Shown here in pieces: positions 2,675 to 64,000 of a DNA stretch of 64,000 nucleotides; within the stretch, counting starts at the first letter, position 1; each line of letters starts with the position of its first letter. The notes beneath the pieces are model-generated. The model searched no databases. It was not told the DNA's origin and saw only the letters and a list, made by a program, of their open reading frames with translations. The translations under genes were made by a program, and so were the position numbers. Source of the DNA: Ilex aquifolium (lineage: Eukaryota; Streptophyta; Magnoliopsida; Aquifoliales; Aquifoliaceae); NCBI GenBank assembly GCA_951799425.1, contig OX637393.1, positions 20,997,744-21,061,743 on the forward strand, read 5' to 3'.

Positions 2675-3235
2675 GGAGTGGCAATCAAACTGCCCGTAAT
2701 ACCCTGATCCTGATCCTAATAGTACAGTCCAAACTGTCCCACAGTCTCAAGCATATGCCACTCTCGGGAAGCTATGCTAGCTAGAAACCTCGTGACTTCT
2801 AACTGAGAACATCAGCCACCACATTTATTTTATCGGGATAGTAGTACAAACTGAAGTCGTATCCATCCATCGACGCTCTCATGTTGAGATCCCGCTAAGT
2901 GAAAATGTACTTCAGACTTTTGTGATCCGAATACACCTCAAATTGCTCTCCATATAAATAGTGGCGTCATGCCTTCAATGCAAAGATAATAGCCGCCAAC
3001 TTCATGTCGTGCGTCAAATAGTTCTTCTCATGGTTCTTAAACTGACGGAAACCATAGGCAACTACACTATCGGGCTACATCCAAGTCCCTCATTTAAGGC
3101 ATCACAGTAGACGGTGTACTTCTGTCCCCTCTCCGGAACAATCAAGATAAGAGCTGAAATCAATCTCCTCAACTCCTGCAATGCCCTCTTACAAGAGTCA
3201 TCCCATTGAAATCTGATATCCTTTCTAGTCAGCCG

Positions 3236-32700: not shown

Positions 32701-34408
32701 TGATTAGCACAAAATATTGCATATCATGTATCTCTTTGCACCTTTTTATACTTGTTTTTGAGGTGAAAATGTGAGAAAATGCATTTAATCTAACAATTAA
32801 TGGAGTTTTGTGTGATTGCAGGTAATGGCATGTGTTAAGCTTCCATCATAGTGCTTAAAGACAATGGAGAAGAAGGGGAGGCTTAACGGGCGGCTCGGAA
32901 GGTCAAGAAACAAAGAAAATGGCAAATCAAGTGAAAACCTACCGGTAGGTTTGGTCATAAACCTACCGAAAGGTTTTGTACACTGGAAATCTTCTACTGC
33001 TGCCTCTGCCAAAACCTACCGGAAGGTTTTGCACACTGGAATTGTTCTGCTGATGTCTTGATAAAACCTACCGGTAAGTTTTGTCATTGATCTATCGTTA
33101 GGTTTTACCCAGAAACGCCAGAAAACTGCAATCTCTTCTTCAATTGCTCCGTGGGCCCACCTCTGCTTCTCCCACACACACCCTGACACACTCTACATAC
33201 AAACATGCTTCCCCACACCTAAAACTTGACTTTGGAAGAAAGAGCATGGAAAAGGAAAAGAGTAAAAGGGGGAGGCATGGTGGGTTGCAGGCATGGCATG
33301 CCCTTACTTGTGCAAGTGTCAAATCATTTCCCATGGATGGGAAGTCTGCTCTCACATACCATAGAGGGGCTGATGGACGAAAATGACTAATCCTTACACC
33401 ATTATTCAGCTTTACATAGTTTTAGAGAGAGAAACTCCCAAGGAAGAAAACATAGTTTTAGAGAGAGAGTTTGATTTTTGCATTTTTCTCACTCATTTCA
33501 CTTGTAACAAGTTGTATTTCACTTGTAATCTTTATTTCTTGCACTTTAATCTCATTTATTTCAAGTGTAATCAAGTTTAGTTTCATGTTCTTGAATTTCT
33601 ATGTTTACATTTGGGTTTTCTTTCCAAATCTTTGTTGTTGGGTATGAAATGAATTCTCTTTTGTAGTTTAACTTTTTATTGCATCAATACAAGTTCAAGG
33701 CTTTGCTTCATCTCTATTTCATCTCTAGTTCATCTCCATGTTTCTTTACAATATGTATGCTTTTGCTTTGAATATGGGTAGTTAAGCTTTTTGTTGGCTA
33801 ATCCAAGGAAAACTTCATCTTGGGTATGCTAAATCAACTCTCCCCCATTCTTCCTTGTAGTGTAAAGTGTTTGTTTTGACTAGGTTGAGTGCGGACGTGG
33901 TTGTGAGCTCTTAATACACCGTAGGCTTGTCACGGGGTATGCTTGAGCTTACATCTCACATCAGTCCCTCACTTCCTACGAATCAATCAAACACCTAGGC
34001 ACTATTGGTTAAATGAATTGAGTTAATTTGGCATTCCCATTGGAATGACCTCTTCGGATTAGCCAACCTTATTTTTCTTGCATTTTATCAAAAATCCTCA
34101 CTCCCCAAAACACAAACTTACAAGATTTTACATTTTTCTATTTTTACAAAATCACCTTCATCATAATTCAACCTTCCTTCCCTGAAGAGACAACCTTGGA
34201 ATACCCATTCCAAGTAAAACACGACAATTGAAAGTCTCTCTTGGCTTGGGGAGCACTTTTGCACACACACACACACATTTTCATCCACACACATGTTTTT
34301 CCCATTTCTAACATCGAACCCAAGAGAGAGTGACACTCCCCTACTCATATAAGCCATATACACACAACCGCGATCATGTGTGGAGATTAGGGTGAATGCA
34401 ACCAAGCA
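32701..34408 (+). mobile_element. Solo LTR, TGATTAG/TGATGAG family, copy 1
   Basis: 1708 bp, begins TGATTAGCACAAAATATTGC and ends ..ACCAAGCA. A perfect 5-bp target duplication ATTAC flanks it (32696-32700 and 34409-34413). It is homologous to 37455-39287 (opposite strand) and to 62390-64000. Strand is inferred from the TGATGAG-type start and from the palindrome cluster lying 230-400 bp inside, the U3 position seen in other LTRs here. It inserted into the leader of the Tat-like element. Confidence 0.88.
32935..33105. repeat. CCTACCGGTAGG palindrome cluster in solo LTR copy 1
   Basis: AAACCTACCGGTAGGTTT (32935), AAACCTACCGAAAGGTTT (32959), AAACCTACCGGAAGGTTT (33012), AAACCTACCGGTAAGTTT (33064), and a decayed fifth site near 33088. 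The first two and last two are pairs spaced 24 bp start to start. Homologous LTR copies have different palindromes here. Confidence 0.9.
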
Positions 34409-37454: not shown

Positions 37455-39287
37455 TGCTTGATGAAAAACGTTGTTGTTTCCTAACCTCTAAAAACCATCA
37501 CTTAGAATGTATAGTGTATGGATAAAGGGAGTGTCACTCTCCCTTGGGATGATGTCAAAAGGAAGGCAACGAAATGGTGGTGGAAATGAAATATATGAAA
37601 TGCGAAATGAACAAAAGTGCTCCCCAAGCGCAAGGAGTCTTTTGCTTGTTGTGTTTTACTTGGAAAAATATTCCAAGGTCATCCCCTCAGGGAAGGAAAG
37701 TTCAAGTGTGTGAAGGTGATTTTGTCAAAAAGAGAAAGTGTAAAATCTTTTGAGTTTTGGTTTGGGGAGTGAAGTTTGTGAATGAAAATGAAATGAAAAC
37801 AAGTGTTGGCTAATCCGAAGGGTTCATTCCAATAGGAATTCCAAATCAACTCGAAGCCTTCCTCGAATAGAGCTTAGATGAACAATTGATTCGTGGGAAG
37901 TTAGGGACGAAATGGAGGTGAGGATCCAAGCATAACCCGTCACCAGGCCTACGGGATATCAAAGATTCACAACCGCATCCACTCTCAACCCAGTCAAATC
38001 GAACCATCATACTCTGAGAGGAGGAAAGAAAATGAGTTGAAATGGCACACCCAAGAGGAGGTCTCCCTTGGATTAGCCAACTTAAAAATCTAGCTATTCA
38101 TGAAAGCAAGAAAGAAATAAATAATGTAAAGAGACATAATTGAAATGGAGCATGAAACTTAAATGAATGCAAGAAATCTTAAACTAAGAAGAAAAATATT
38201 CAATACCCATTTTAAAGCAAGAAATAAAGAAAACTTGGAAGCAACAATGGTGGATTGAAGAACATGTAACTAAACTTGCAAAATACTTGTAATAAATGAC
38301 ATTAAGGACATTAAATGAAGATTACAAGAGTCTTACAATAAATTACAAGTGAAAGGATTGAAGAAAATACAAAAACATAAGCTTTCTATCTACTATTCAT
38401 CATCTTCTTCCTTGGACTTTCTAAGCTTAGATAGCCACACTCTCAAAGCTTGTGTGAATGCTGAATATATGGAGTGTAGAGACTTCAAATTTCGTCCATG
38501 AGGCTCCCCTAGCCTGTGTGTGCAGGCTTCCCATCAATGGGAAGATATTTGATGGCTTGGATAGGCTAGGACCAGCCTACCCAGCAACTCCCCAGGTAGC
38601 CCCTTCTCTCTCATCCTCATTAATGCTCTTGCCTCCAAAGTCTTGAAATTGTGTAAGGATGGCATGGTTATGTGTAGAATATGTCAGGGTAGGCGTGGGA
38701 GAAGTATAGGTGGGCCCCCCAAGAAGTTGGAGAAGACTTGCAGGAGTTCTGGGCATTTTGGGCTGTTTCAGAAGAGCGTACCGGTACGTCGAACTCCAGT
38801 GGCTTCAGCGTACCGGTACGCATACCGGTGCCCTTCTGCTCCAGACCAGTTTTTGTAAAATTGTCATAACTTTTGATCCAACCGTCCAATTGAGCTGAAA
38901 TTTTGACACAATACATAAGACATCCAGATATACAACTTTCATGTTTTTCACTTTTTCATATTTGAAGTGGATCATGGTCGAAAATGAGACAAACAGCAGT
39001 ACTATGTCAAAACTTTGGGAAATCAGTGGGCTAAACCTTCCAAATTTCATTTTTCTTGGTTTCTTCACCTTTAAGCCTCCAAATCCTCATTTAATGTGTC
39101 CATCTATTCACCACTCATTCATCCTTAGTTGCAAGGTTATAAAATCCATCATTTACGCTATAATTACCTGCAACAGCGAAAATTCAACATTATTCATAAT
39201 TTCGGCTAACTCTAAGTACTTAAATACAAAGTTGAGTTAAAATGCATGTAATGAGGCCGTGAAATATGCAATATTTTGTGCTCATCA
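37455..39287 (-). mobile_element. Solo LTR, TGATGAG family, copy 2, nested in Athila 2 gag
   Basis: 1833 bp with a perfect 5-bp target duplication CATAT (37450-37454 and 39288-39292). Removing the insert and one CATAT rejoins the gag frame as in the intact Athila (GACACCATATCTGACAG at 50790). On the minus strand it begins TGATGAGCACAAAATATTGC and ends ..TCAAGCA. No internal region remains, so it is a recombined solo LTR. Confidence 0.95.
38777..38831. repeat. CGTACCGGTACG palindromes in solo LTR copy 2
   Basis: Perfect 12-mers at 38777-38788 and 38809-38820 and a degenerate GCATACCGGTGC at 38820-38831. The flanks (CAAAACTGGTC.. on one side, CAGCCCAAAATGC.. on the other, minus strand) align with the flanks of the ACCTTCCGGAAGGT pair at 62902 in copy 3. 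Confidence 0.92.
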
Positions 39288-47952: not shown

Positions 47953-48142
47953 GTAGTTGATTAGTACTTAAACTTGACATATTATTATGACATTTTAAGA
48001 CTAATTGTACTTTAATGGAGTTTAAGTGATGTCATTTCAGGCCCTAAACTGAACAAGGACCCAAAAACAACAAGTACCACACTTGGATGCAGTGCCAGTA
48101 CATTATAGCCCAAAATTGGAGAAGCTTGGAACACTGTCACCA

Positions 48143-48508
48143 CGTTCGAACGGCAGCTCACGTTCGAACGTCAACCAAAACACTGTAGCAGACTCAGATG
48201 CTGAAGAGATGGCGTGTGGCAGTTAGGAAAGAAGACTGGAGCTCTGAAGTACTTGAGTGTCACGTTCGAACGCCAACTCACGTTCGAACGTGCACTTGAG
48301 TTGATGGAAGACCAGACCACTGCAGAGAGTTGGTACTGCACTTCACAGGGACCAACAGATCACTCGAGTGAAAAGGGGTCAGAGCAAGATCTGGCGTTCG
48401 AACGCCTTCAGTGCAAAAACAGAAGAAACGTTCGAACGGCAGTCAACGTTCGAACGCCCTCAGTGCAAAAACAGAAAGAACGTTCGAACGCCAACTCACG
48501 TTCGAACG
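48143..48508. repeat. Nine-copy CGTTCGAACG palindrome array in Athila U3 (5' LTR)
   Basis: Perfect copies start at 48143, 48161, 48263, 48281, 48395, 48429, 48447, 48481, 48499. Successive spacings are 18, 102, 18, 114, 34, 18, 34, 18. Each 18-bp pair leaves an 8-nt gap, so two copies can pair as a 10-bp stem with an 8-nt loop. Palindromes also often sit in a C(A)CGTTCGAACG(CC/T) context. All nine are intact in both LTRs. Confidence 0.98.
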
Positions 48509-48601
48509 TAAACCACAGACTGGCAGCAGAGTTGTTGACTGTTCACTTGGACTTGGGCGGCAAACACTATTCTTTCACCCCCCCTGCCTCCTCCTCTTGC
48601 C

Positions 48602-48609
48602 TATAAATA
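48602..48609 (+). promoter_or_regulatory. TATA box of the Athila LTR
   Basis: TATAAATA in the context GCCTATAAATACTCC, 93 bp after the last palindrome. Transcription is expected about 30 bp downstream, near the GGAGAGTGAAAG region. The identical site in the 3' LTR is at 60844. Confidence 0.75.
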
Positions 48610-49932
48610 CTCCCCTTGTTGGAGAGTGAAAGAAGGGAGGAGGAGAAAGCATTGTAGGTAGTAGCATAGTGATGGAGGCTTAGACTCCCACTTTCATTGT
48701 AGTTAGTTCATTTTCCTTATGAAGTCTTTATTTTAGAGATTAGTTTGGCTTTAGTCCAACATCTCTTGCTTGTTATAACAGTAGTTTTATGCTTATGTTT
48801 ATGTTTATGCTTTCATTTCTCATGCATAGAAGAGAGATAGCTCCCATCTTGGTTGAGGAAGCAACCCTCCAATCTTTGGTTGAGGAAGCCACCCTCCAAA
48901 TGTGACTAGCTTTCTTCTACTTTAATTGTTCATGCATTTCACTTCCATTGCTTGAGCTTCCTTCTTTCTTAGAAGAGTGAAACTCTTCCACTTTTCTAGA
49001 GCTTGATTAAGGCCGTGAAGGGTGGAACGTGATTCACCCATTCTTTGGGGAAGATTCGCTCCGCGTTTGTTGTTACTTTATCTTTTAAAGTTCTCCACTT
49101 GGAGGGATGAGCATCACTCACTTTTCTAGCTTTAACCAGGCCATGAAGAGTGAGTAGTTTCTCATTCACTCTTTAGTGAGAGGAGAAGGGCATGTAATAG
49201 CTATCCGGAAATCATATTTGTGCAAAGTTCTTCTATGCTTAACGTTTATATCCTCTTGTTATCGGATAATTGATTGCATCTAGCAAAGTTAAGGTACTTT
49301 GTATAATTGAGAGCTCTTTCTATGACATGGATGACTCCTGCATAGAAAGACTCATCAGTTCAAGGCAAGTACCCCGGCTAGATCCTCATGACTACCCTTC
49401 AATCTCCCCCCTTACTGTACTTCACTAAAAAGAATGGACTATTAATATCATGATTGGATGTCTTGTAGAACCACTTGCTTGTTTGTAGACGGGTTAAGTC
49501 TCGGCACAGGCAATTCTTGTACATTTCTAGAAAGACATCGGAATCATGGTCTTAATCCTCAAATCCATCTTTATCTTCCGATTAACTTGATGTTGACACG
49601 GGAGTTAATTGAGTTATCAAGCACAAATATGACAAACTGGATAACTAACTACATGTCCAGATCCTTGCACTAAAGGGTGACTCTTTTTATTTAGCATTCA
49701 TCTCCTATTTTGTTCAGAAAATCCCTCCGGAAAGAATCTTATATTCTATCCAGCAAAACCCATATCTCACAGCAAATCAAAAAGGTTACCATCAAAAGGT
49801 CTCTACCACTGCTTACCTTAGAAATATTAACAAAAGTTCCCTGTGGATTCGACTCCGGACTCAAACCGGATTATTACTACAGCTTGACCGCCTGCACTTG
49901 GGTGTACATTGGATCAATCGCTGTCAAGTTTT

Positions 49933-49950
49933 TGGCGCCGTTGCCGGGGA
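49933..49950 (+). promoter_or_regulatory. Primer binding site (tRNA-Asp) of the Athila element
   Basis: TGGCGCCGTTGCCGGGGA, complementary to the 3' end of plant tRNA-Asp including CCA, six bases after the LTR. This primer type is typical of Athila. Confidence 0.9.
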
Positions 49951-50043
49951 ACCTTTGAAAGGTGCTTTAAGGTAAAAGGTAAAAAGACCTTCAACATTGT
50001 GTATATTTTGTTTTACTGTAAATAACTTTGTTTTATTTTCTTT

Positions 50044-53000
50044 ATGACTGAGGGCACTCCTCACTTCCAAAATTTGCCAGCAGAATCGTGTGAGTCCGTG
50101 AATCAGCCTGAACCTAATTCACCTAGATCAGTAGCAGACTCTTGTGAGGGTAGTATGGCAAATAATGAAAGAAATGGAGAAGTCCCTATGAGAGAGGAGG
50201 AAGTCCCTAACATCCGAACTTTGCGGGATTACTTGAATCCCACAAGAAATAGTGTCCCCTCTTGTTTTATTTTTCTTGAAAATGCTCCCCTCTTTACTGT
50301 AAAGCCGGGGACAGTGCAGTTATTGCCCGTGTTTCATGGATTGGATGCAGAAAATCCATATCTGCATATAAAAGATTTCGAAGAAGTGTGTGGAACATTT
50401 CAAGACAATTCTGAATTGACCAAAATGAGACTATTTTCTTTCTCTTTGAGGGATAGAGCCAAACAATGGCTAAATTCTTTAAAGGCTCTTTCAGTACCCA
50501 ATTGGCAAGCATTGCAAAATGAATTTTTTAGAAAGTTTTTTCCTTTGCACCGCACAAATGCATTAAAAAGGCAAATCATGAATTTTGAAGTCAAAGAAGG
50601 AGAAACTTTTTATCAAAGTTGGGAGATATTCAAAGATCTACTCCAATCTTGCCCACATCATGCTTTTGAAAATTGGACATTGGTAGGATTTTTCTATGAC
50701 TCCTTACCCTCTAGACTACGTCAGTTTGTCGAAATGATGGCCCAAGGAGAATTCATGGGAAAAAGTCCGGAGGAGGCATTCAATTTCTTCGACACCATAT
50801 CTGACAGTTCTCAGATATGGGACTCAGCCTCCCCTACCACTGTAGAAGCCCGACCATCTAATTCCCAAGGAAGAAAATATGTCTTGAGAGAGGATGATGA
50901 CTTGAGAGCAAAAATGTCCACATTATCTCGAAAGCTCGAAGCTTTAGAGATGAAGAAAGTCCATCAAGTTGATGTTAGCTCCTCCACTGAGCAAGTGTGT
51001 GGAATCTGTGCGCTAACAGGACACCCTACTGGGGAGTGTCCCACCATCCCAACATTCAAAGAAGTCTTGTTAGAACAAACACATGCAGTTTCCAACTTCA
51101 ACAAGCCTTACTCCAACCCATATTCTGAAACATACAATCCAGGATGGCGAAATCACCCTAACTTCAGTTGGAAGAACACACAACCAATACCCATGAACCA
51201 ACAACAAGGACCATACCCACCACCTCAAGGACCTCCTGCATATCAACCATACCAACCACCACAAAAGAGGAACCTTGAGGACACATTAAATCAGTTCATG
51301 CAAAGCCAAATGAATTATAACAATAATTCTGCACAGGCTTTCACTGATTTCAAAACCCAGACCACTCAATCTTTTGAGGATCTTAAAAGCCACATCCAAA
51401 AGTTGACTCAATCCATGGTCACACATGAAAAGGGAAAATTTCCTGCCCAATCAAAGCAACCACAAGGCCAATTCCATGTAGGGAACCCTTCAACAACAGG
51501 AAACACCCAAGACCAAGCCCAAGCTGTCACGACACTAAGAAGTGGCAAAGTGATTGACAAAACAATCAGGGACGTACTCATTCCCAAGCCAAGACCTGAG
51601 TCACGCCCAGCCAATCCATCATCTGAACCTAAACCAATTGAGAAAGACCCTGAGCCTGTGATTGAACAAGAGTCAGAACCTTCTGAGAAAAAGGAACCTT
51701 CGTATCCCGTTCCGGCTCCATTTCCTCATCGACTCAGAGCCAAACAAAAAGTGAAAAATCAGCCTGAAATTTACGAGCTTTTTAAGCAACTAAATATCAA
51801 CATCCCACTTCTGGATGCAATCAAACAAGTTCCACCCTATGCCAAGTTTCTAAAAGACTTGTGCACAGTCAAGAGAAGCCAGAAAGTCCAAAAAAGAGCG
51901 TTCCTAACAGAACAAGCTAGTGCTCTTCTCCAACAGAAAACCCTTCCAAAATACAAAGACCCAGGATGTCCGATTGTCTCATGTATCATTGGAAACTTCA
52001 GAATTGAACAAGCCTTGTTAGACCTTGGAGCCAGTGTTAATCTGCTACCCTACTCTGTCTATCAGCAGTTGGGTTTGGGTGAACTTAAACCCACTTGTGT
52101 CACACTCCAATTGGTTGACAGATCTGTCAAAACCCCCAGAGGGATTGTTGAAGATGTGCTTGTCCAAGTAGATAGTTTTGTCTTCCCTGTTGACTTCATT
52201 GTTCTGGATACTGAACCAGCAATAAATTCGGAGAACCAAATTCCCGTCATTCTTGGTCGACCATTCCTAGCAACTTCCAATGCTTTAATCAATTGCAGGA
52301 ATGGAGTCATGAAATTAACTTTTGGGAATATGACTCTCGAAATGAACATTTTCAATATTGCCAAATATCCAGAAGAGGAAAAGGAAGAAAGGGAAGTAAA
52401 CTTCATAGAATCTCTGATACAGGAACATCTGGATGATACATTTTGTGGGGATCCTGCTAAATCATCTCTGTTTGAAATCATCTCATCAGAAATAACAGAT
52501 GATGACCTAAATCCACCAGTTGACCCTAATCATACTGTTGAGACCTGGGCACTCAAATTTGAAGAAATTTCACCAAGTGGCACAAAACCAGTCTCATCAA
52601 GTGATAGCCCACCAAAGCCTGAATTGAAACCTCTCCCATCTGACCTCAAGTATGCATTCTTAGGAGGGAATGAGTCATACCCAGTGGTAATCTCATCTAA
52701 GCTCACAGACTTGCAAGAGTCTAAATTGCTTGAAGTTCTTCGGAGTCATAAAAGTACCATTGGATGGACCATCGCTGACTTGAAAGGTATAAGCCCGTTA
52801 ATCTGCAATCATGCCATATACCTTGAAGAGGACTCAAAACCCTCTCGTCAAATGCAGCGACGACTGAACCCTCACATGAAGGAAGTTGTGAGAATTGAGG
52901 TACTCAAACTCTTAGATGCAGGGATAATCTTCCCTATCTCAGATAGTAAATGGGTCAGTCCAACCCAAGTTGTGCCAAAAAAATCTGGGGTCACAGTGGT

Positions 53001-55596
53001 AAAAAATGATGCAAATGAACTAGTGCCAACTCGAGTCGTCACAGGATGGCGAATGTGCATTGACTATCGAAAACTCAATTTGGTCACTAGAAAAGATCAT
53101 TTTCCTCTCCCATTTCTTGACCAAGTCCTGGAGAGAATTGCAGGCCATGCATTTTATTGTTTCTTGGATGGATATTCAGGGTATAACCAAATTGAGATAG
53201 CCCTAGATGATCAGGAGAAAACAACATTCACATGCCCCTTTGACACCTTTGCATTCAAAAGGATGCCATTTGGACTTTGTAACGCTCCTGCAACATTCCA
53301 AAGATGTATGCTAAGCTTGTTCAGTGATATGGTTGAAAAATTTTTGGAAGTGTTTATGGATGATTTCTCTGTCTATGGTGATTCTTTCGATTTGTGTCTA
53401 ACCAATCTGGAGAAAGTACTGATCAGGTGTAAGGAAGCCAACCTAGTGCTCAATTGGGAAAAATGTCATTTTATGGTAACACAGGGCATTTTTCTTGGTC
53501 ACATCGTGTCGTCTGAAGGCATGAAAGTTGACAAGGCAAAAATTGATTTGATAGGAAATTTGCCTGCTCCTAAGACTGTAAAGGATGTTCGATCATTCCT
53601 AGGACATGCAGGGTTCTACAGGAGATTCATAAAAGATTTCAGTACCATAGCAAAACCAATGTGTCACCTCCTAAGTCAGGATGTAATATTTGATTGGAAT
53701 GAAGCATGCCAAAATGCCTTTGACAAGCTAAAAGACATGCTAATTTCTGCACCAATAATGCAATCTCCTGACTGGAATCTTCCTTTTGAACTAATGTGTG
53801 ATGCAAGTGATTTTGCTGTAGGTGCTGTATTGGGACAAAGAAAATATAAGAAACCCCATGTGATTTACTATGCTAGCAAAACTTTGAATGATGCCCAAAT
53901 GAATTATTCAACAACTGAGAAAGAATTGCTTGCTATAATTTTTGCACTGGAAAAATTCCGTTCTTATCTTGTTGGTTCTTCTGTTATTGTATTCACTGAC
54001 CATGCAGCTCTGAAATTTTTGCTCACAAAGAAGGACGCCAAACCAATACTCTTGAGATGGATACTTTTGCTCCAAGAGTTTGATCTTGTCATTAAAGACA
54101 AGAAAGGCGTCGAGAACGTGGTGGCAGATCATCTATCCAGACTAACCTATGAATTTCATGAGGATGGACTGCCAATCAATGAGAAATTCCCCGATGAACA
54201 AATGTTCATGATTTATAATACACCTTGGTATGAAGACATTGCTAACTTTCTTGCTACTGGTACACTCCCTCCATCTTTTACCATGGTGGACAAAAAGAAA
54301 TTTCTGAGGGAGGTACGTAACTTCTTTTGGGAGGATCCTTACGTATTCAAGTACTGTAAAGATCAAATCATAAGACGTTGCATTCCTGCTCATGAAAGTA
54401 GCCAGGTAATAACTTTTTGTCATTCTGAAGCATGTGGTGGCCACTTTTCATCAAGAAAAACCGCTGCAAAAATCTTGCAGTGTGGATTTTACTGGCCCAC
54501 ACTTTTTCAAGATGTCCATGCCTTTTGTTTAACATGTGATAGGTGTCAAAGGTTGGGAAGCATTTCTAAAAGAAATATGATGCCCTTAAACCCCATTTTG
54601 GTAATTGAAATTTTTGACTGTTGGGGCATCGATTTTATGAGACCATTTCCCCCCTCCTTTGGCTATCTATACGTTTTAGTGGCTGTAGACTATGTATCCA
54701 AATGGGTTGAAGCAATTCTATGCCGAAACAATGATCACAAAACAGTGATCAAATTTTTAAAAGAAAATATTTTGTCCCGGTTAGGAATTCCGAAATCAAT
54801 CATAAGCGATGGGGGTGCTTATTTTTGCAATTGTCCCTTCTGGAATTTAATGAAAAAATACTTGATTTTTCACAAAATTGCAACCCCTTATCACCCACAG
54901 ACTAGTGGACAAGCTGAGTTAGCTAATCGGGAGATCAAATTAATTTTGGAAAAAACGGTGAATCCAGATCGCAAAGATTGGTCAGTAAGACTGACTGATG
55001 CGCTATGGGCATACCGAACTGCTTTTAAAACAATTTTGGGCATGTCTCCCTATCGATTAGTCTATGGAAAGCCATGTCACTTGCCTGTAGAATTGGAACA
55101 TAGGGCATACTGGGCCATTAAAGCAATGAATTTTGACTTAGACAAGGCTGGACTAAAAAGGAAACTTCAGATAAATGAATTGGAGGAATTGAGAAATGAG
55201 GCATATGAAAATGCTAAGATTGCTAAAACCAGGATGAAAATCTTTCATGACAAACACATTGTGCGGAAGTCTTTTGAGCCATCTCAAAAAGTCTTGCTAT
55301 TCAATTCAAGACTCCGCCTCTTTCCTGGTAAGTTGAAATCAAGATGGGCTGGGCCTTACATTGTGAAAAAGGTGTTTGATCACGGAGCAGTTGAAGTGGA
55401 AAACCCAGCAAACGGTAATAATTTTACTGTTAATGGTCAGAGGTTAAAACCATTTTTGGAGGATTTTGTCAGAAATGTGGAAACCATTCTTTTAATGGAA
55501 CCAGAGTACTCCTCCGAAATTCGCGCCTGCCGACACTCCAGTGGATCGGGTCCGGAAATATCTACTCCAACCCGACCCACTGGGGCGCCTTTATAA
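50044..55596 (+). CDS. Athila gag-pol polyprotein, intact 1850 residues
   Basis: One uninterrupted frame from ATG 50044 to TAA. Gag core with [12 protein letters not shown] around residue 135 and a zinc knuckle C319-x2-C-x4-H-x4-C332. A Pro/Gln-rich linker (about 370-430). Aspartic protease with [10 protein letters not shown] at about 660 (DLGA replaces DTGA, as usual in Athila). RT with [18 protein letters not shown] and FMDDFSVYG near 1104. RNase H starting [13 protein letters not shown] at 1252. Integrase with H2C2 finger from H1460 (CLTCDRC), catalytic D1530, D1589, E1625 (35 residues between the last two) and a C-terminal [13 protein letters not shown] module. All catalytic residues are present. 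No frameshift separates gag and pol, so processing would rely on the protease alone. Confidence 0.97.
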
Positions 55597-56159
55597 GGCG
55601 CCCACGTGTTCCCAGCCGCCGCACCTGGCCCCCCCTCTTTTGTTTTTCTTTTCTTCTTCTTCCATTTTTTTCTTCTTCTGTTAGTCGTCTAGTCACCGAG
55701 AAACACCCATGACCACACACTCCACAAACACGATATTTTGCTTCATGTTTAGCATTTTAATCTTATATTTACTCACGGGTGTTCTTCTCTTGTTCGCACT
55801 CACACACAAGGATTTTCAGCCTACCCGAAATTCGGATCTGCGCACAGATTAGTAATTTTTGGTGTTTTTATTTGTAGGTCTCAGTGGTGAACAGATCTCT
55901 ACCAGTCAACCTCGTCTCCACACTCCATAAACCGGTAAATTCGAAACATTGGGGACAATGTTCAGTTTAGGTTGGGGGGTATGATCAGTTCATCAGTTCA
56001 TTTTCGTTCATAGTTCATAATTTTCGCAATTTTTTAATTTTTATTGTCGTTGTTGATCATGTTTTGTATAAATTGATTGTGCTTATGAATCAGCCTCAAT
56101 CGTCTTTGTGACTGGCAGACGTTAAAGAACCAGATAGTGAGTCTTAACATTTAGCAATC
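55597..56159 (+). other. Athila post-pol noncoding region with internal polypurine-like tract
   Basis: Pyrimidine-rich stretch after the stop (55620-55680), then the block CATTGGGGACAATGTTC and TAGGTTGGGGGGT at 55968-55980. That tract nearly equals the PPT before the 3' LTR (60186-60199). The block is also conserved in Athila 2 (44437). Confidence 0.6.
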
Positions 56160-56570
56160 ATGGATGTAAATCTTTTTTGGTTTAGCCTAGGAGTCCTACG
56201 TACTTTTCCATCTGATGTACATACCATGATCATGAGAAAAGCAAGATTAGTAAGGAAGGCTGAAATCAAAGAAAAACAAGCGAAACCCCTCTGTGGCAGA
56301 AGTAGCTTTGCCAAACGCCGTCGTGCAAAAAGGCTTGGTGCCTGTAAACAGTGTGGCAGATACTTTCACGAAAAAAGGTACAACCGGTGTTCTGAACCAG
56401 TTTCCGGTCGCGCACTTGATCGATTAGACTGGATAGTGAATGGGCTGAGTGAGGATTACCCTGATACGCCATGCTATTCCGGTACTGTGCTTAACCGATT
56501 TGTAAGAGAGGAAGTTGGGAGAGTTACTGGTTGTCCCTTTTACACAGACACAGAGGGAGACTCAGATTAG
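56160..56570 (+). CDS. Small basic Cys-rich protein of the Athila element, 136 residues
   Basis: I do not recognise a named family. The N-terminal part is basic (MRKARLVRKAEIKEKQAK) and a cluster KRRRAKR (residues 52-58) looks like a nuclear signal. C62-K-Q-C65 and C77, with H70 between (CKQCGRYFHEKRYNRC), suggest a small metal-binding knuckle; further Cys at 45, 105 and 125. The C-terminal third is acidic (TDTEGDSD). It lies between pol and the internal promoter. The first 50 codons are conserved in Athila 2 (44646-44807), which argues that it is a real element gene. Possible role: nucleic-acid binding; not demonstrated. Confidence 0.6.
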   Translation: MDVNLFWFSLGVLRTFPSDVHTMIMRKARLVRKAEIKEKQAKPLCGRSSFAKRRRAKRLGACKQCGRYFHEKRYNRCSEPVSGRALDRLDWIVNGLSEDYPDTPCYSGTVLNRFVREEVGRVTGCPFYTDTEGDSD

Positions 56571-56838
56571 AAAATTTATGTAGGAAATGTGTATTTTTGT
56601 TGGGGGAGTGAAGGCCAAAGGTCCGAATTTGTTGTAAAAATTGTAAAAATCTTTTTGTATAAATTTCTTTTTGACTGAAATGAAAATATGGGCCGAGTAA
56701 GGAATGCCCCAAAATACCAACCTGAAGCGTGGGTAGGGGTTCATCCTGAGACGCCTTAGTTTTTGAATTAAATTTGTGTGTTTTATCTTCTTTGATTGTA
56801 TATAGTGCAATAGGAAAAAATTTGAATTTTTGGTTCAA
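56571..56838. other. Spacer before the internal palindrome cluster
   Basis: About 270 bp of AT-rich DNA after the small ORF, with GTTGGGGGAGTG near 56600 resembling yet another polypurine tract. No coding signal. Confidence 0.4.
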
Positions 56839-57003
56839 CGTTCGAACGCCAGGTAACGTTCGAACGTTGAATGCTTACAGTACTTTGGCCTCTGACAGAA
56901 CACAAAAGTACTGAGAGCTCACAACGTTCGAACGCCAGACCACGTTCGAACGATCTTTTTAAATTGCTTCTACCCACGTTCGAACGTCACCAACGTTCGA
57001 ACG
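56839..57003. repeat. Second CGTTCGAACG palindrome cluster, internal to Athila
   Basis: Perfect copies start at 56839, 56857, 56925, 56943, 56977 and 56994, in three pairs spaced 18, 18 and 17 bp. A GCTTACAGTACT..CAAAAGTACTG module sits between the first two pairs, as in the solo LTR at 22 kb. A seventh copy at 57229 ends two bases before the ATG of the next ORF. Confidence 0.97.
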
Positions 57004-57016
57004 TCACAACTCAGGC

Positions 57017-57024
57017 TATAAAAG
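57017..57024 (+). promoter_or_regulatory. Internal TATA box upstream of the Athila extra ORF
   Basis: TATAAAAG in GGCTATAAAAGCC, 13 bp after the last palindrome of the cluster and about 220 bp before the ORF start. The following 200 bp is C/A rich and looks like a plant 5' UTR (CTTCAAAACCCTAG). This predicts a separate subgenomic transcript. Confidence 0.65.
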
Positions 57025-57228
57025 CCTGGTTCGTCGTTTTCAGCCAAAATCCCCAAATTCTTCAAAACCCTAGAAGCCATTCTCACTCCACAGACCTCAG
57101 CTTGCCCTCATTCCCCAAGAATATCCAAATTCGACCTTCCCTAACCCCTCCCCACATCAAAATCATCAATCCCAAACCCAGAACCCTGAGTTCTAGGACC
57201 TTTCAGAACCCTCCCAGTTCAAAACCCA

Positions 57229-57238
57229 CGTTCGAACG
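57229..57238. promoter_or_regulatory. CGTTCGAACG palindrome abutting the extra ORF start codon
   Basis: A perfect palindrome followed by CC then ATG. If a protein or pairing reads this motif, it could act on this 5' UTR as an operator-like site. Function is inferred from position only. Confidence 0.6.
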
Positions 57239-57240
57239 CC

Positions 57241-58359
57241 ATGCCAAGGATGAAACTCCCTGCCTGGCGTGCTCCTCTAGTGAACCAAGACCAAAACATT
57301 GTAGAAGAGGTGATAGAAGAAAGAGGAGGAAGGCAAAGGACTAAGAAATTCGACAAAACCAGATTTCCTAATGCCTTAAAGGCTGAGAGGTATGAAAATT
57401 TCTACCATAAACATGCTGTTGTTTGTGAAAGGGACGTTGTGGTGGATGATTTTGCTGAGATTGGGATAAAGCAGGAAATGGAGAGAAGGGAATGGGTATG
57501 GTATTTGAGAAATGGTGGAGACGCCGTTGTGGAATTGGTGCGGGAGTTTTACTCCAACGCCGAGATCATCAACGGCGCAATACGAACATACGTTAGGGGT
57601 ACCCACATTGACGTGGACGAAGCTTCCATTATGGAAATAAGGGAAGAAATACCCCGAGTTCAAAAACCTACCTACCCACCAAAGAAGGATGTAGCAATGA
57701 CTGTGGTAGGAAAGGAGTTGACAGGGAGAGATGACTTTTCATGGGTAGGGAGGAAATTTCTTAAGCAAGGGGAGCTCACCGACAAGTACAAGATGTTGAA
57801 TTTGATTGCGGTGTCCAACTTTGCTCCCTTAGGAAGAAAGAATGAGATTCTACCTGATATGGCCCGACTCTTGTATGCCATTGGCAAAGGACACAGCATT
57901 GACCTCCCATCCCTCATTTTGAGTGAAATGAAAAAAGGATGTGACGTGAAGCGGAATTCACTTCCCTTCGGCACTCTAGTGACTGAGATATGCACGGAGA
58001 ATGGGGTGAGGATAAAACCTGAAATGGAGATCCAGAAGCCAATGGGGCCACTGAACAAGGCTTCCTTCCGGAGGAGCCAAAGTCATAGTGGTATCCCGGC
58101 GTCAAGGCAAGAAGGACGCCCAGCCCAAGGAGTGGATGAAGTGCAAGAAGAGTTGGATGAGATGGAGAGAGAGATGGAGAGAGAGATGGGAAGAGAAGGA
58201 GATCAGCCAGGAGAGGCTGGACCTAGCACCAGCACCAGCACCCGACGTTCTTTGATGGACGTCATGCTTAGCATCGAAGCTAAGCAGGACGAGATCCTTA
58301 GGTATATGAGGGGTGGACATGGTGGACATGGTGGTGCTAGTGAGCAGGGAGGCGAGTGA
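57241..58359 (+). CDS. Athila extra ORF, plant-transposon-protein type, 372 residues
   Basis: Starts MPRMKLPAWRAPL. Residues about 40-230 resemble the 'putative plant transposon protein' domain found in additional ORFs of plant gypsy elements: WVWYLRNGGDAVVELVREFY, a VRGTHIDVDEASI stretch and LLYAIGKGHSIDLPSLILSEM. The C-terminal third is low complexity: a charged coil with EMEREMEREMGREG, a PSTSTSTRRS linker, SIEAKQDEILRYM and a Gly/His tail. It sits where Athila env-like genes usually lie, but I see no signal peptide or membrane segment, so it is not an envelope. It has its own TATA box and palindromes upstream. Function unknown; DNA binding or silencing control are possibilities only. Confidence 0.8.
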   Translation: MPRMKLPAWRAPLVNQDQNIVEEVIEERGGRQRTKKFDKTRFPNALKAERYENFYHKHAVVCERDVVVDDFAEIGIKQEMERREWVWYLRNGGDAVVELVREFYSNAEIINGAIRTYVRGTHIDVDEASIMEIREEIPRVQKPTYPPKKDVAMTVVGKELTGRDDFSWVGRKFLKQGELTDKYKMLNLIAVSNFAPLGRKNEILPDMARLLYAIGKGHSIDLPSLILSEMKKGCDVKRNSLPFGTLVTEICTENGVRIKPEMEIQKPMGPLNKASFRRSQSHSGIPASRQEGRPAQGVDEVQEELDEMEREMEREMGREGDQPGEAGPSTSTSTRRSLMDVMLSIEAKQDEILRYMRGGHGGHGGASEQGGE

Positions 58360-60185
58360 GAGTGAGAGACTTCTATTTTTGTTCTTGTCCCCATGTTGTT
58401 TTTATGTTTGTTTAAAGTGCTTCTTTGTATGAATTTCTTCTTTTATAGTTGTAAGTTTTTGTGTGGTTGTGAAAGAATGGAACTGTTGATGTAGAAGATA
58501 AAATTGTGAAATGAATGGTTCCATTTATCACTTTTATTTGGTTTTATGCATTTGTAGATTTAGCATAGAAATTAAAAAGGTAATGGAACAAATGTGGATA
58601 TTAAGAATGCTTGCTGGAGTAAATATGCACATGATCGGTTTGACACCTCCATTTATCAACCGAGACTTAAAACCACATTTCTTGAAAACATGGATGTTCT
58701 CTCTATACTTAAATTGTCATTTGTACATCGATATTTGTTATTTTAAAAGTACAGGAGGATCTGACTCGCAAATGGAATTGGTATATAACCGATACTCCCT
58801 GAAAAACCTGACATACACAGTGGAGATAACAAAGAACACCAGGGTGAGTTTCGAACCTAACGATGCTTTCGAGAGACAATCAATGTTTACTCAAGTGAAT
58901 TCTTTTCAAATCTCCATTTTTGAATGATCTCATTAACCTTGCTTTGATTGACGCATTTAAAAGTGATCTATTGACATATCCCACACGGAACCATCACATA
59001 CGACACATACATGTGCATATGCTTGAGAAATGATCTTAGGCCATCTTTGATATAATATTGAGCCTTAGACCTTTCTTTGAATTTTTTTTTTTTATCCCTC
59101 GTTAGCCATGTTTGAGCCATCAATGTTTAAAGTTTTCTTTGATAAACCTACATGATTACCAATCCACAGGAAAACATCCTTGACATACCTTGGCTATCTA
59201 ATTTTCTTACATCCTCTTTGTAAGATGATACAGAAAAAGGAAAAGAAAAAGGAGCATTCGAGATTATCATCCAAGAAGAGTTGATTGGAACAATTGAAAC
59301 AAAACAGAAGCAAAAAGGCAAGAACTTGCCAAGAAAGTGAAAAATGAGAAAAATGAAAGAAAGAAATGTCATCTTTCGGCAAAATATCAAGAAGTTAGAA
59401 AGAGGTGTGCTACAAAAACGCAAACAACAGATAGCTTTTGAAAATCCCTGACGTCGTTTCGTTAGCCACTGACCTTTGGCCACGCTACAACCCATGCAAA
59501 GCCCTAATTGATCTCAAGTATGTTGCATGCATGAGTTGTTAATCACAATTGGGATATGGTAAATAGCATTCCTTTTAATTGCGTTGATATTCTTTCATGA
59601 GATTATGCCAAACATAAGTAGTTGCTTATTTAAAATTTCACTCCTTTCTTAAAAGGTGCATGTGATTTTTTGACTGGCCATCTTCTGATCACATGATCTG
59701 TGAGAAACAAGTCACTATAATCAGAGTGAATCTTTGCTGAGAGTATACTACGTGAGGTTTGTGAAATCGAAACTATCCATGGAAGGTGAAAAAAAGGAAG
59801 TATTTGTTACATAACAATTCTTGTTGCTTGAATGATCATTCCTATTGCATTGAGAATTTCAAATACCAATGTAACAAATGATAATTTTTGCATAGATTGA
59901 ATACCTGTGGAATAAGGACGTGTGAGACATAAGTCAAGGTTGAGAATCTGGTGTCTCAACGACCATGATGCTAATTTACTTTAGACAGCATTATTCTATG
60001 CACATTTGTTCGACTGAAGTTTGTGGGTAGCTTCTCTGGAAACCCTCACGAGACAACACTCATCCGCTAGGGTAAACCTAGTGGTTCAACGGCTTGTTGC
60101 ATAAGCTAAATGCAACCGGATGACCTACGAAAATGGCATTAGGAGTAGAATTTTCTTTTTTGTATTACTAGAGACTAGCAATATT
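58360..60185. other. Athila 3' noncoding region
   Basis: About 1.8 kb between the extra ORF and the PPT. A 138-codon frame at 58511-58927 has no recognisable domain and I do not call it a gene. The rest is A/T rich without repeats I can identify. Confidence 0.5.
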
Positions 60186-60199
60186 TAGGTTGGGGAGTG
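60186..60199 (+). promoter_or_regulatory. Polypurine tract of the Athila element
   Basis: TAGGTTGGGGAGTG immediately before the 3' LTR (TG at 60200). Primer for plus-strand DNA. Confidence 0.85.
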
Positions 60200-62168
60200 T
60201 GATTAGTACTTAAACTTGACATATTATTATGACATTTTAAGACTAATTGTACTTTAATGGAGTTTAAGTGATGTCATTTCAGGCCCTAAACTGAACAAGG
60301 ACCCAAAAACAACAAGTACCACACTTGGATGCAGTGCCAGTACATTATAGCCCAAAATTGGAGAAGCTTGGAACACTGTCACCACGTTCGAACGGCAGCT
60401 CACGTTCGAACGTCAACCAAAACACTGTAGCAGACTCAGATGCTGAAGAGATGGCGTGTGGCAGTTAGGAAAGAAGACTGGAGCTCTGAAGTACTTGAGT
60501 GTCACGTTCGAACGCCAACTCACGTTCGAACGTGCACTTGAGTTGATGGAAGACCAGACCACTGCAGAGAGTTGGTACTGCACTTCACAGGGACCAACAG
60601 ATCACTCGAGTGAAAAGGGGTCAGAGCAAGATCTGGCGTTCGAACGCCTTCAGTGCAAAAACAGAAGAAACGTTCGAACGGCAGTCAACGTTCGAACGCC
60701 CTCAGTGCAAAAACAGAAAGAACGTTCGAACGCCAACTCACGTTCGAACGTAAACCACAGACTGGCAGCAGAGTTGTTGACTGTTCACTTGGACTTGGGC
60801 GGCAAACACTATTCTTTCACCCCCCCTGCCTCCTCCTCTTGCCTATAAATACTCCCCTTGTTGGAGAGTGAAAGAAGGGAGGAGGAGAAAGCATTGTAGG
60901 TAGTAGCATATTGATGGAGGCTTAGACTCCCACTTTCATTGTAGTTAGTTCATTTTCCTTATGAAGTCTTTATTTTAGAGATTAGTTTGGCTTTAGTCCA
61001 ACATTTCTTGCTTGTTATAACAGTAGTTTTATGCTTATGTTTATGTTTATGCTTTCATTTCTCATGCATAGAAGAGAGATAGCTCCCATCTTGGTTGAGG
61101 AAGCAACCCTCCAATCTTTGGTTGAGGAAGCCACCCTCCAAATGTGACTAGCTTTCTTCTACTTTAATTGTTCATGCATTTCACTTCCATTGCTTGAGCT
61201 TCCTTCTTTCTTAGAAGAGTGAAACTCTTCCACTTTTCTAGAGCTTGATTAAGGCCGTGAAGGGTGGAACGTGATTCACCCATTCTTTGGGGAAGATTCG
61301 CTCCGCGTTTGTTGTTACTTTATCTTTTAAAGTTCTCCACTTGGAGGGATGAGCATCACTCACTTTTCTAGCTTTAACCAGGCCATGAAGAGTGAGTAGT
61401 TTCTTATTCACTCTTTAGTGAGAGGAGAAGGGCATGTAATAGCTATCCGGAAATCATATTTGTGCAAAGTTCTTCTATGCTTAACGTTTATATCCTCTTG
61501 TTATCGGATGATTGATTGCATCTAGCAAAGCTAAGGTACTTTGTATAATTGAGAGCTCTTTCTATGACATGGATGACTCCTGCATAGAAAGACTCATCAG
61601 TTCAAGGCAAGTACCCCGGCTAGATCCTCATGACTACCCTTCAATCTCCCCCCTTACTGTACTTCACTAAAAAGAATGGACTATTAATATCATGATTGGA
61701 TGTCTTGTAGAACCACTTGCTTGTTTGTAGACGGGTTAAGTCTCGGCACAGGCAATTCTTGTACATTTCTAGAAAGACATCGGAATCATGGTCTTAATCC
61801 TCAAATCCATCTTTATCTTCCGATTAACTTGCTGTTGACACGGGAGTTAATTGAGTTATCAAGCACAAATATGACAAACTGGATAACTAACTACATGTCC
61901 AGATCCTTGCACTAAAGGGTGACTCTTTTTATTTAGCATTCATCTCCTATTTTGTTCAGAAAATCCCTCTGGAAAGAATCTTATATTCTATCCAGCAAAA
62001 CCCATATCTCACAGCAAATCAAAAAGGTTACCATCAAAAGGTCTCTACCACTGCTTACCTTAGAAATATCAACAAAAGTTCCCTGTGGATTCGACTCCGG
62101 ACTCAAACCGGATTATTACTACAGCTTGACCGCCTGCACTTGGGTGTACATTGGATCAATCGCTGTCA
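60200..62168 (+). repeat. 3' LTR of the complete Athila element
   Basis: 1969 bp, the same length as the 5' LTR, offset by 12242. Differences noticed: near 60911 (G to T), 61006, 61404, 61510, 61532, 61832, 61970 and 62070. All nine palindromes (60385-60750) and the TATA box (60844) are unchanged. As the transcript's 3' end, this copy of U3 would be present in the genomic RNA. Confidence 0.97.
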
Positions 62169-62173
62169 GTAGT

Positions 62174-62389
62174 CCTGAGGATCCAGTTGGGGTACTTGCC
62201 TTGAACCGATGAGTCTTTCTATGCAAGAGTCATCCGTGTCATAGAAAGACCCCACGGTTATACAAAGTACCTTAGCTTTGCTAGATGCAATCAATCATCC
62301 AATAAGCAAAAAGAGATAAACATTGCATATTTGATTCAAGCATACCCCGTGACGATGCCTACGGTGTATCAAGAACTCACAACCATGTC
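62174..62389 (-). mobile_element. Inverted Athila LTR fragment, part 2, and mosaic end
   Basis: 62174-62336 on the minus strand continues the LTR fragment at 47423-47952 (blocks matching CATCGGTTCAAGGCAAGTACCCC and CTAGCAAAGCTAAGG). From about 62337 the sequence changes to a block resembling 37931-37985 (CATACCCCGTGACG.TGCCTACGG), which belongs to the TGATGAG LTR family. The switch point looks recombinational. Confidence 0.7.
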
Positions 62390-64000
62390 TGATGAGAGCA
62401 AAATATTGCATATTTGATGGCCTCATTATATGCATTTTAACTCAACTTTTGCATTTAAGTACTTAGTGTTAGCCAAAGTTGTGAATAATATTGATATTTT
62501 GATGTTGCATGTTTTGATAGCTTAAATGATGGATTTTAGGACTTTGCAACTATGTTGGATGTGAGGTGAAGTGGTGAACTCATGAAATGAGGATTGAGAG
62601 GCTTGGAAGGTAAAGAAATCAAGAAAAATGCATTTTGGATGAAGACCTTCCGGAAGGTTTATGAAGACCTTCCGGAAGGTTTAGCCCACTGGAATTTCGT
62701 AATTTTGACACTGTACCACTGTTTTTCTAACTTTTGACCATGATCTACTTCGAATTTGAAAAAGTGAAAAACATGAAAGTTGTAGATATGGATGTCCTTT
62801 TTATTGTGTCAAAATTTCAGCTCAATCCAACGGTTGGATCAAAATTTATTATTTTTCTACCAAAACTGGTCCAGAGCTGTCACCAGATTCCAGTAGGTTA
62901 AACCTTCCGGAAGGTTGTCATCGTTCTTCCGGAAGGTCTTGCCCAGAATGCGAAAAACAGCCTGCAACTCAACTTTGCGTCTTGGGGGTCCCACCTAATC
63001 TTCTCCCACTTGCTCCCCAACATTATCTTACACAAGCACATGCTTCCCTTACACATTTGGAGGACTTTGGAGGCTTTGCATTGAAGAAGGCATGGGAGGG
63101 AAGTGGGCTACCATGGGGGTGTTGTTCTAGCTTGTCCAAGGCAATCAACTCAGCCCCTCTTTGGTGTAAGACCTGCACACACCTAGGGGGACCCTCCATG
63201 GACGAAATTCAAGGCTTTCACTCTCCATTATACATTCAACATTCAACACACAAGAAGAGGGGTTGGCTACCTAAGCTTAGGATTAGATATAGAAAGCTCC
63301 AAGGGGGAAGATGATGAATAGTGCTCAAAGTGACGTTTTTGCATTTTTCTTCCACTCTTTCACTTGTAGTTTAATGTAAGAACCTTGTAAACTTCATTTA
63401 TTGTCTTTAATGTCATTCCTTTCAAGTTTATTGCAAGTTTACTTTCATGTTCTTCATTTCACCATTGTTATTTAAGTTTTCTTCATTTCAAGCTTTTATA
63501 TTGGGTATTGCATATTTTTCCTTCATAGTTTTAGATTTCTTGTTGTAAGTTAAGTTCCATGCTCCATTTCCCTTCCATGTTCATTTCCTTTATGCTTGTC
63601 TTGCATTGTTAATATGAGTAGCTAGGATTTAAGTTGGTTAATCCAAGGGAAAATTCCTCTTGGGAATACCATTTTCAACTCTTCTTCATTCCTCCCTTTA
63701 GAGTCAAATGGTTCGGTTTGACGGGGTTGAGAGTGGATGAGTTGGTGAGCCTTTGATATTTCGTAGGCCTAGTCACGGTTTATGCTTAAATACTCACCAA
63801 TCTCGTCCCTAGCTTCCCCCGAATCAATCGTTCATTCATGCTCAATCGGAGGAAGGCTTTGAGTTGATTTGATATTCCCATTGGAATGAACCCTTTGGAT
63901 TAGCCAACACTTGCTTTATTTGCATTTTCATTTACAAACCAAACACAAAACTCAAACAAAAGATTTTACATTTTCTTTTCATTTTTGCAAAATCACTTTC
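62390..64000 (+). mobile_element. LTR of the TGATGAG family, copy 3 (runs off the window)
   Basis: Begins TGATGAGAGCAAAATATTGC at 62390. Homologous across its length to the solo LTRs at 32701 and 37455; by comparison about 300-350 bp are missing beyond the window. The expected duplication ATGTC (62385-62389) cannot be checked. Whether it is solo or part of a full element is unknown. Confidence 0.85.
62645..62937. repeat. ACCTTCCGGAAGGT palindrome pairs in LTR copy 3
   Basis: Perfect 14-mers at 62645, 62667 and 62902, and a one-arm variant TTCTTCCGGAAGGT at 62924. Two pairs, each spaced 22 bp start to start (8-nt gap). They lie 255 and 512 bp into the LTR, at the positions where copies 1 and 2 have other palindromes. 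Confidence 0.93.

Follow-up and report, generated by a model that had tools for sequence, protein, structure and literature searches.

Repeated palindromic motifs in LTR retrotransposons have been described for the Sireviruses, Ty1/Copia elements in which element-specific palindromes occur in 8–32 copies per element (Bousios et al. 2010, PMC2829016). In the LTR the motifs precede the TATA box, and elements with an env gene carry them before env as well. One consensus per element covers the LTR and pre-env copies, with a CGG-CCG core in all but one, and agreement of LTR and pre-ORF words is already implied by the available text of that account (PMC2829016). As far as that text goes, the study compares divergent elements, with neither an in-register swap inside a single family nor a connection to protein variants, and calls the motif Sirevirus-specific and absent from classic non-Sirevirus elements. 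Motif turnover is known from VANDAL elements, with the motifs YAGTATTAY and AGTTGTCC/AGTTGTAC, to which binding of VANC proteins has been shown (PMC5735166, PMC10398659). The copies of the VANC21 motif share one orientation, and the string "palindrom" is absent from the main text of the VANC21 paper. Plant LTR retrotransposons also contain many families of accessory ORFs, mostly without known function in the available accounts (PMC7264820, PMC11728184). One of these, a 3′ sense ORF of sunflower Athila elements, combines PF20167 with a predicted nuclear signal (PMC11728184). Among the papers listed from the open literature, titles and abstract beginnings contained no report of palindromic word turnover in Athila LTRs, and for palindromic LTR motif clusters they yielded PMC2829016 alone.

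The window analyzed here, a stretch of 64,000 nucleotides of Ilex aquifolium DNA, contains three LTRs of one Athila-type family, whose LTRs begin with TGATNAGnnnAAAATATTGCAT. Copy 1 (32701–34408, forward strand) and copy 2 (37455–39287, reverse strand) are solo LTRs with the target duplications ATTAC and ATATG, respectively, and copy 3 (62390–64000, forward strand) belongs to a non-autonomous Athila-type element with two LTRs, of which it is the 5′ one; this element continues past the window end. The family uses three CCGG-centered words, ACCTACC-GGTAGGT (T), GCGTACC-GGTACGC (G) and ACCTTCC-GGAAGGT (A), which vary minimally on a single frame: each half-site changes at one symmetric position between T and A and at two between T and G. 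The original prediction, that the three related LTRs carry different palindromes within alignable flanks, was borne out on both counts. Copy 1 contains T-type words at approximately 32935–33105 (one intact, several decayed, and one mixed, ACCTACCGGAAGGT), including the 18-bp AAACCTACCGGTAGGTTT at 32935, whose 16-mer starts at 32936. Copy 2 contains the G-type words CGTACCGGTACG at 38777 (38777–38788) and GCGTACCGGTACGC at 38808 (38808–38821). The A-type clusters of copy 3 (62645–62937, forward strand) contain ACCTTCCGGAAGGT at 62645, 62667 and 62902, and a shorter copy at 62924–62937. Around the 3′ cluster, copies 2 and 3 agree at 148 of 183 positions on its 5′ side and at 53 of 80 on its other side.

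It had also been proposed that all copies of the word in one LTR change together. This is nearly so, the exceptions being the mixed word of copy 1, a half A word (GGAAGGTTTAGCCCACTG, 39024–39041, reverse strand) at the 5′ site of G-type copy 2, which aligns with an A word of copy 3, and four of 42 clusters in the genome-wide set described below, each of which contains one half-site of another type. Perfect CG-centered palindromes of at least 12 bp number 23 in the whole window, a count that takes in other elements and includes both LTRs of element E (see below), as compared with 0–6 in 20 dinucleotide shuffles.

The copy 3 element (locus L031) has its 5′ LTR at 334–2244 and a second LTR from 5687, with 98.6% identity over the 1729 bp matched. 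This non-autonomous A element keeps both word clusters, the internal A words lying at approximately L031:3563–3740. Its interior holds a 333-aa ORF (L031:2361–3362) with three CCHC zinc knuckles and no further retrotransposon domain in Pfam; besides this, the interior contains no ORF of at least 150 aa, and thus no intact pol or accessory ORF. The size of the internal A-word array differs among copies of the element, being enlarged in L032 (3314–3651) and L033 (4678–5015), with 20 and 18 typed half-sites, respectively, as compared with eight in L031.

The window further contains an autonomous Ty3/Gypsy element, element E (47958–62168, forward strand; target duplication GTAGT), with LTRs at 47958–49926 and 60200–62168 that are 99.5% identical, and with a word of its own, ACGTTCGAACGT. 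Its single gag-pol ORF (50026–55596, forward strand, 1856 aa) contains gag, protease, RT, RNase H and integrase, and the order of RT and RNase H before integrase is that of Athila (Ty3/Gypsy) elements. For the family of copies 1–3, sampling covered the LTRs and the 3′ half of the elements. The PBS TGGCGCCGTTGCCGGGGA, which we take to be of the Athila/Tat type, is present near 2248 in L031 and at 49933 in the window, together with a PPT and LTRs of 1.7–2.0 kb. The ACGTTCGAACGT words of element E are clustered in the 5′ LTR (48142–48509, forward strand; with a counterpart in the 3′ LTR), upstream of a TATA box (TATAAATA) at 48602, and again in the interior (56838–57004, forward strand), upstream of a TATA box (TATAAAAG) at 57017. 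This internal cluster lies just before an accessory ORF (57190–58359, forward strand, 389 aa) that contains Pfam PF20167, Transposase_32 (E = 5e-26). A TATA box was dropped as a general feature of the family of copies 1–3, because no TATA[AT]A was found in copies 1 and 2 or in the windowed part of copy 3.

Words of this kind also occur in another type of LTR. Decayed TTCGAA words at 22033–22260 (strand not assigned), in a Tekay-like-looking LTR, are homologous to the internal cluster of element E, spacers included (73% over 113 bp), and a Tekay-like LTR nested in L088 carries GCGTACCGGTACGC. The LTR start TGTGACG, presumably that of Tekay, is the sole ground for this name. Three further features of the window were recorded. 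An inverted copy (approximately 88%) of a piece of the element E LTR (61476–61637 and 62169–62329) lies directly behind the 3′ end of E and before copy 3. The segment 22400–23080 has CATAGTT-like inverted ends and dense CGATACG/CGTATCG repeats at both ends, and is possibly a non-autonomous DNA transposon with subterminal repeats. A 0.53-kb tandem duplication (93%) at 10480–11582 contains several GGTCGACC and CCGGTCGAC words (GGTCGACC at 10640–11430), and may be a Sirevirus LTR, since the GGTCGACC core equals the Vitis Sirevirus motif CGGTCGACCG in the available text of PMC2829016.

Among the described systems, the Sireviruses likewise have clusters of a palindromic word particular to the element, both in the LTR and in front of an extra ORF, but they are Ty1/Copia elements, whereas element E is Ty3/Gypsy by its domain order. 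On the available text, the Sirevirus motif is a closer published match than VANC, and is the precedent for the double position. VANDAL elements, as described in the sources available, resemble the present family in having a short word repeated in the non-coding regions of one lineage, in its synchronous turnover, and in the difference of words between related families. However, VANDALs are DNA transposons, and the family described here has LTRs, a PBS and, in element E, gag-pol. The comparison with VANC made in the original prediction is an analogy, since the VANC21 motifs, in one orientation, are not called palindromes. Sunflower Athila elements share with E the Ty3/Gypsy affiliation and a 3′ accessory ORF holding PF20167, but word clusters are not among the features described in the available text (PMC11728184). 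Such words in Athila-type elements, and their in-register turnover within one family, are new here, as is the presence of the words in what are probably Tekay-type elements.

The observation of word types is right genome-wide, and is larger than first stated. In the 800 Mb of genome searched, the 3′ junction pattern of the family (up to two mismatches) was found at 792 + 777 places, and its reversed control at none. Twenty further LTRs, picked for varied first bases among 100 listed junction matches, comprised nine T, eight G and two A LTRs and one wordless LTR (L069), so that 19 of 20 carried one of the three words. The sampled LTRs, the three of the window and the internal clusters gave 44 clusters, 42 of them with typed half-sites; several of the 42 come from the same element, and L031–L033 are near-identical copies. 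Within these 42 clusters, 262 of 266 typed half-sites agree with the majority of their cluster (shuffles: 140), with 56 half-sites of no type excluded. When half-sites were dealt at random, approximately 126 fell in the minority, and the lowest of 2000 trials gave 108. Neither site-by-site variation nor a drift continuum, the two patterns named as contradicting the original prediction, was found in the family of copies 1–3. Words of the related B/C clade are less discrete.

The symmetry of the words is nearly complete. Among 161 CCGG-centered sites, 119 (intact CCGG centers only) could be typed on both arms, and the arms match in 116 of these (32 T, 41 A and 43 G). AACCTNCCGGNAGGTT occurs at 8950 places genome-wide, versus one in the reversed control; among the matches listed, the first 50 distinct places, which all fall on contig C1 and often near one another, read A in 47 cases, T in two and mixed in one, with no G or C at that position.

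Concerted replacement of the repeated word, as proposed, was found to be symmetric and in register, both in the clusters and in aligned LTRs. Of 15 LTRs aligned, L076 (G) and L068 (T, with one A half-site besides) show this most clearly: 37 of 42 bases are equal, and three of the five differences fall on a half-site-defining base. The sequence [CT][AT]CTGG follows within 28 nt of 10 of 32 T, 11 of 41 A and 16 of 43 G symmetric words, as compared with 252 of 3192 background windows. Part of the spacer frame is thus common to all three word types, and the words inside it were exchanged. GGAAGGTTTAGC(C/T)CACTG is kept in six of nine aligned G-type LTRs and in the wordless L069, at a site that a complete A word occupies in A-type LTRs, and is read as a putative remnant of an A to G word swap in one lineage. 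Among 49 T-word centers, 23 of 25 variants are of the deamination type (CCAG 8, CCGA 7, CTGG 5, CTAG 2, TCGG 1). The clear decay pattern is confined to T; G and A words offer few decayed centers or short flanks. The type changes themselves are transversions on both arms (A/T at position 3 and C/G at position 5 from the center). Because these changes are symmetric transversions and decay of the center is of the deamination type, drift or methylation decay does not explain the word types.

The internal position of the words is associated with an accessory ORF in the family of copies 1–3 too. Locus L086 contains a T cluster followed by an ORF with PF20167 (E = 2.6e-18) approximately 0.8 kb before the 3′ LTR, and this ORF has at least 136 homologs. 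PF20167 also matched in L101 (1.7e-14, above the cut-off) and in L102 (41.7 bits, under the cut-off of 45), and was the only Pfam family above the cut-off in the accessory ORFs examined. The LTR word equals the internal, pre-ORF word in 13 of 13 elements typed at both sites, among which L031, L032 and L033 are copies of one burst and the LTR words of L093, with a decayed center, were typed by eye. The others are L074, L082, L083, L089, L091, L095, L097, L099 and the element at C1:15491555 (internal T, LTR L065 T). LTR and internal clusters of one element are alike by eye, spacers included. L083 (G/G, with L087) has no long ORF behind its internal cluster, and nesting is possible. Two apparent mismatches were re-read by eye after they had been seen. 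In L088/L074, the G words (2992–3063, reverse strand) lie in the nested Tekay-like LTR, and the element's own cluster (115–180) has the T type of its LTR. In L085/L066, the two internal G clusters belong to nested G-type LTRs in reversed orientation, and this element was excluded from the 13. An A-word version of the ORF-upstream region gave no matches to one narrow exact pattern, which leaves the trans partner of the A elements missing.

The N-terminus of the accessory ORF product is basic by eye, and heptad periodicity was seen in hand-picked C-terminal segments of four of five proteins, being absent in that of element E. These features would suit a nuclear dimer. The predicted fold had a mean pLDDT of 37.6 (very low confidence), and a profile search against solved structures returned nothing up to E = 1. 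In L089, L091, L093, L095, L097 and L099, the open frame runs upstream of MARTKR through a hydrophobic DPIEGFILTLFTLLTFGALLLC-like stretch. A longer form with a membrane segment, and thus an env-like membrane protein, is possible from this hydrophobic segment.

To relate word class to protein, 86 distinct word places from 100 matches listed, all on contigs C1–C10, were compared with the ORF matches on the same contigs (78 of 136 and 87 of 150 of the L086 and L099 matches listed, respectively). A word lies 100–520 bp upstream of an ORF among the matches listed at 32 of the 86 places, and the word class fits the ORF similarity at all 32; a correlation of words with variants of a co-encoded protein was what the original prediction had set out to be checked. 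The ORFs next to the 11 T places are all in the L086 (T) list (70–86% identical), and those next to the 21 G-class places are all in the L099 (G) list (70–88%). Three T places are also in the L099 list (69–71%), each under its own L086 value, and one G-class place is also in the L086 list (67%, versus 86% to L099), so that the word agrees with the higher identity at each of the four places found in both lists. The other 54 places, including most GTACCG (G2) places, had no ORF among the matches listed. Three S-type places were 70–71% identical to the G reference, no nearer than the T places (69–71%). At 13 protein positions, among them 67, 151, 171, 193 and 197 of L086 (numbered from MARTKR), no residue is common to five T and four G-class proteins; any other 5/4 division of these nine gives at most 11 such positions. 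A tree of 16 proteins supported the G1 pair (96/95) and, weakly, the G2/S pair (83/93); in it, the T and the G proteins did not come out as clades.

A more distant ORF clade, B/C, with GCGCCTAGGCGC and CAGCGC words, was considered as a second word/protein case and rejected as not clean, since it required four label changes versus a minimum of two. Its words are still clustered on the protein tree, with none of 200 shuffles as low as four changes. Co-evolution would lead to such an association between word and ORF, but so would a single deep split followed by inheritance, and the T/G association may reflect such a split with co-inheritance. The co-evolution with a recognizer put forward in the original prediction is thus supported by the concerted swap, by the agreement of LTR and internal words and by the word–ORF association, the last of which may be one deep split; we regard it as plausible.

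Retention of two-fold symmetry while the half-site changes suggests a reader with two identical halves, and repetition of the word in two non-coding regions, in agreement, suggests that a single trans factor serves the two. For this role the accessory ORF is the natural candidate, because it lies behind one cluster, has a basic N-terminus and, in four of five proteins, heptads, and because its similarity group predicts the word. We hypothesize, tentatively and at somewhat less than even confidence, that a regulator with two-fold symmetry, probably a dimer, reads the words by contacting half-sites such as ACCTACC, GCGTACC and ACCTTCC around CCGG, and that this regulator would most economically be the accessory ORF product, serving as activator or anti-silencer of its own lineage rather than as a silencer. 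The internal region of the family of copies 1–3 would then have a promoter function. As the specificity of the regulator drifted, the operators of the element would follow, with recombination between the LTR and internal clusters as an aid, and a lineage that had acquired a new word would no longer answer to the old protein. Non-autonomous relatives that retain the words would be switchable in trans.

The main rival is that the words are sites of host transcription factors, among which the lineages shift. The T word consists of two inverted ACCTACC boxes, a sequence that we take to be the AC element (AC-I) of R2R3-MYB factors, but this element is broken in the A and G words. Words are also common to another LTR type, as in the nested LTR of L088 (GCGTACCGGTACGC) and at 22033–22260, which shares the words of E; however, the cluster common to E and the Tekay-like LTR has common spacers too, and so looks like module capture rather than convergence. 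Sirevirus motifs mainly retrieved stress-related factor sites in PLACE, according to the available text of PMC2829016. The words also track the similarity group of the accessory ORF, which counts against host factors, and we consider this explanation unlikely. Concerted evolution alone, in which repeat turnover and template switching between LTR and internal copies homogenize a neutral repeat that has no reader, would fit the likeness of the two clusters of one element down to the spacers, and the co-occurrence of A and T half-sites in L068. It leaves unexplained the near-perfect palindrome in each state, with matching arms in 116 of 119 words, and the persistence of CCGG and symmetry, and seems to us improbable.

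Two further readings concern silencing and RNA. The words might be read by the host silencing machinery, or act as seeds of CG/CHG methylation, with turnover as escape. The deamination-type decay of T centers (23 of 25) is as expected if these were methylated when silent, and in VANDAL elements RdDM and VANC hit the same non-coding regions in the accounts available; but methylation is expected in silent elements anyway, the clear decay pattern is confined to T, and escape should favor loss of words that are instead repeated and kept symmetric, which makes this reading quite improbable. Selection for self-complementarity rather than for the word itself, with the palindromes acting in RNA as, for example, dimerization or packaging signals, would account for its survival through word changes, and the internal clusters would be in genomic RNA. 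We hold such a role to be very improbable, as clusters that occupy the first third of the LTR and precede the accessory ORF suit DNA sites better.

Whole clusters that switch together, in step with protein variants, hint at a lock-and-key control, with the accessory ORF product as the favored reader. More broadly, Transposase_32 proteins of plant Athila elements could be dimeric regulators or anti-silencers reading private lineage palindromes, whose turnover would end cross-activation, while non-autonomous relatives would hitch-hike and Athila and Tekay-like elements would trade cassettes; this generalization is rather doubtful. Because this type of accessory ORF comes with a discrete, symmetric lineage word upstream of it and in the LTR, a specific biochemical test is possible. 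If the proposal is true, sequence-specific self-control with turnover of specificity would extend from VANDAL DNA transposons to a major clade of plant retrotransposons.
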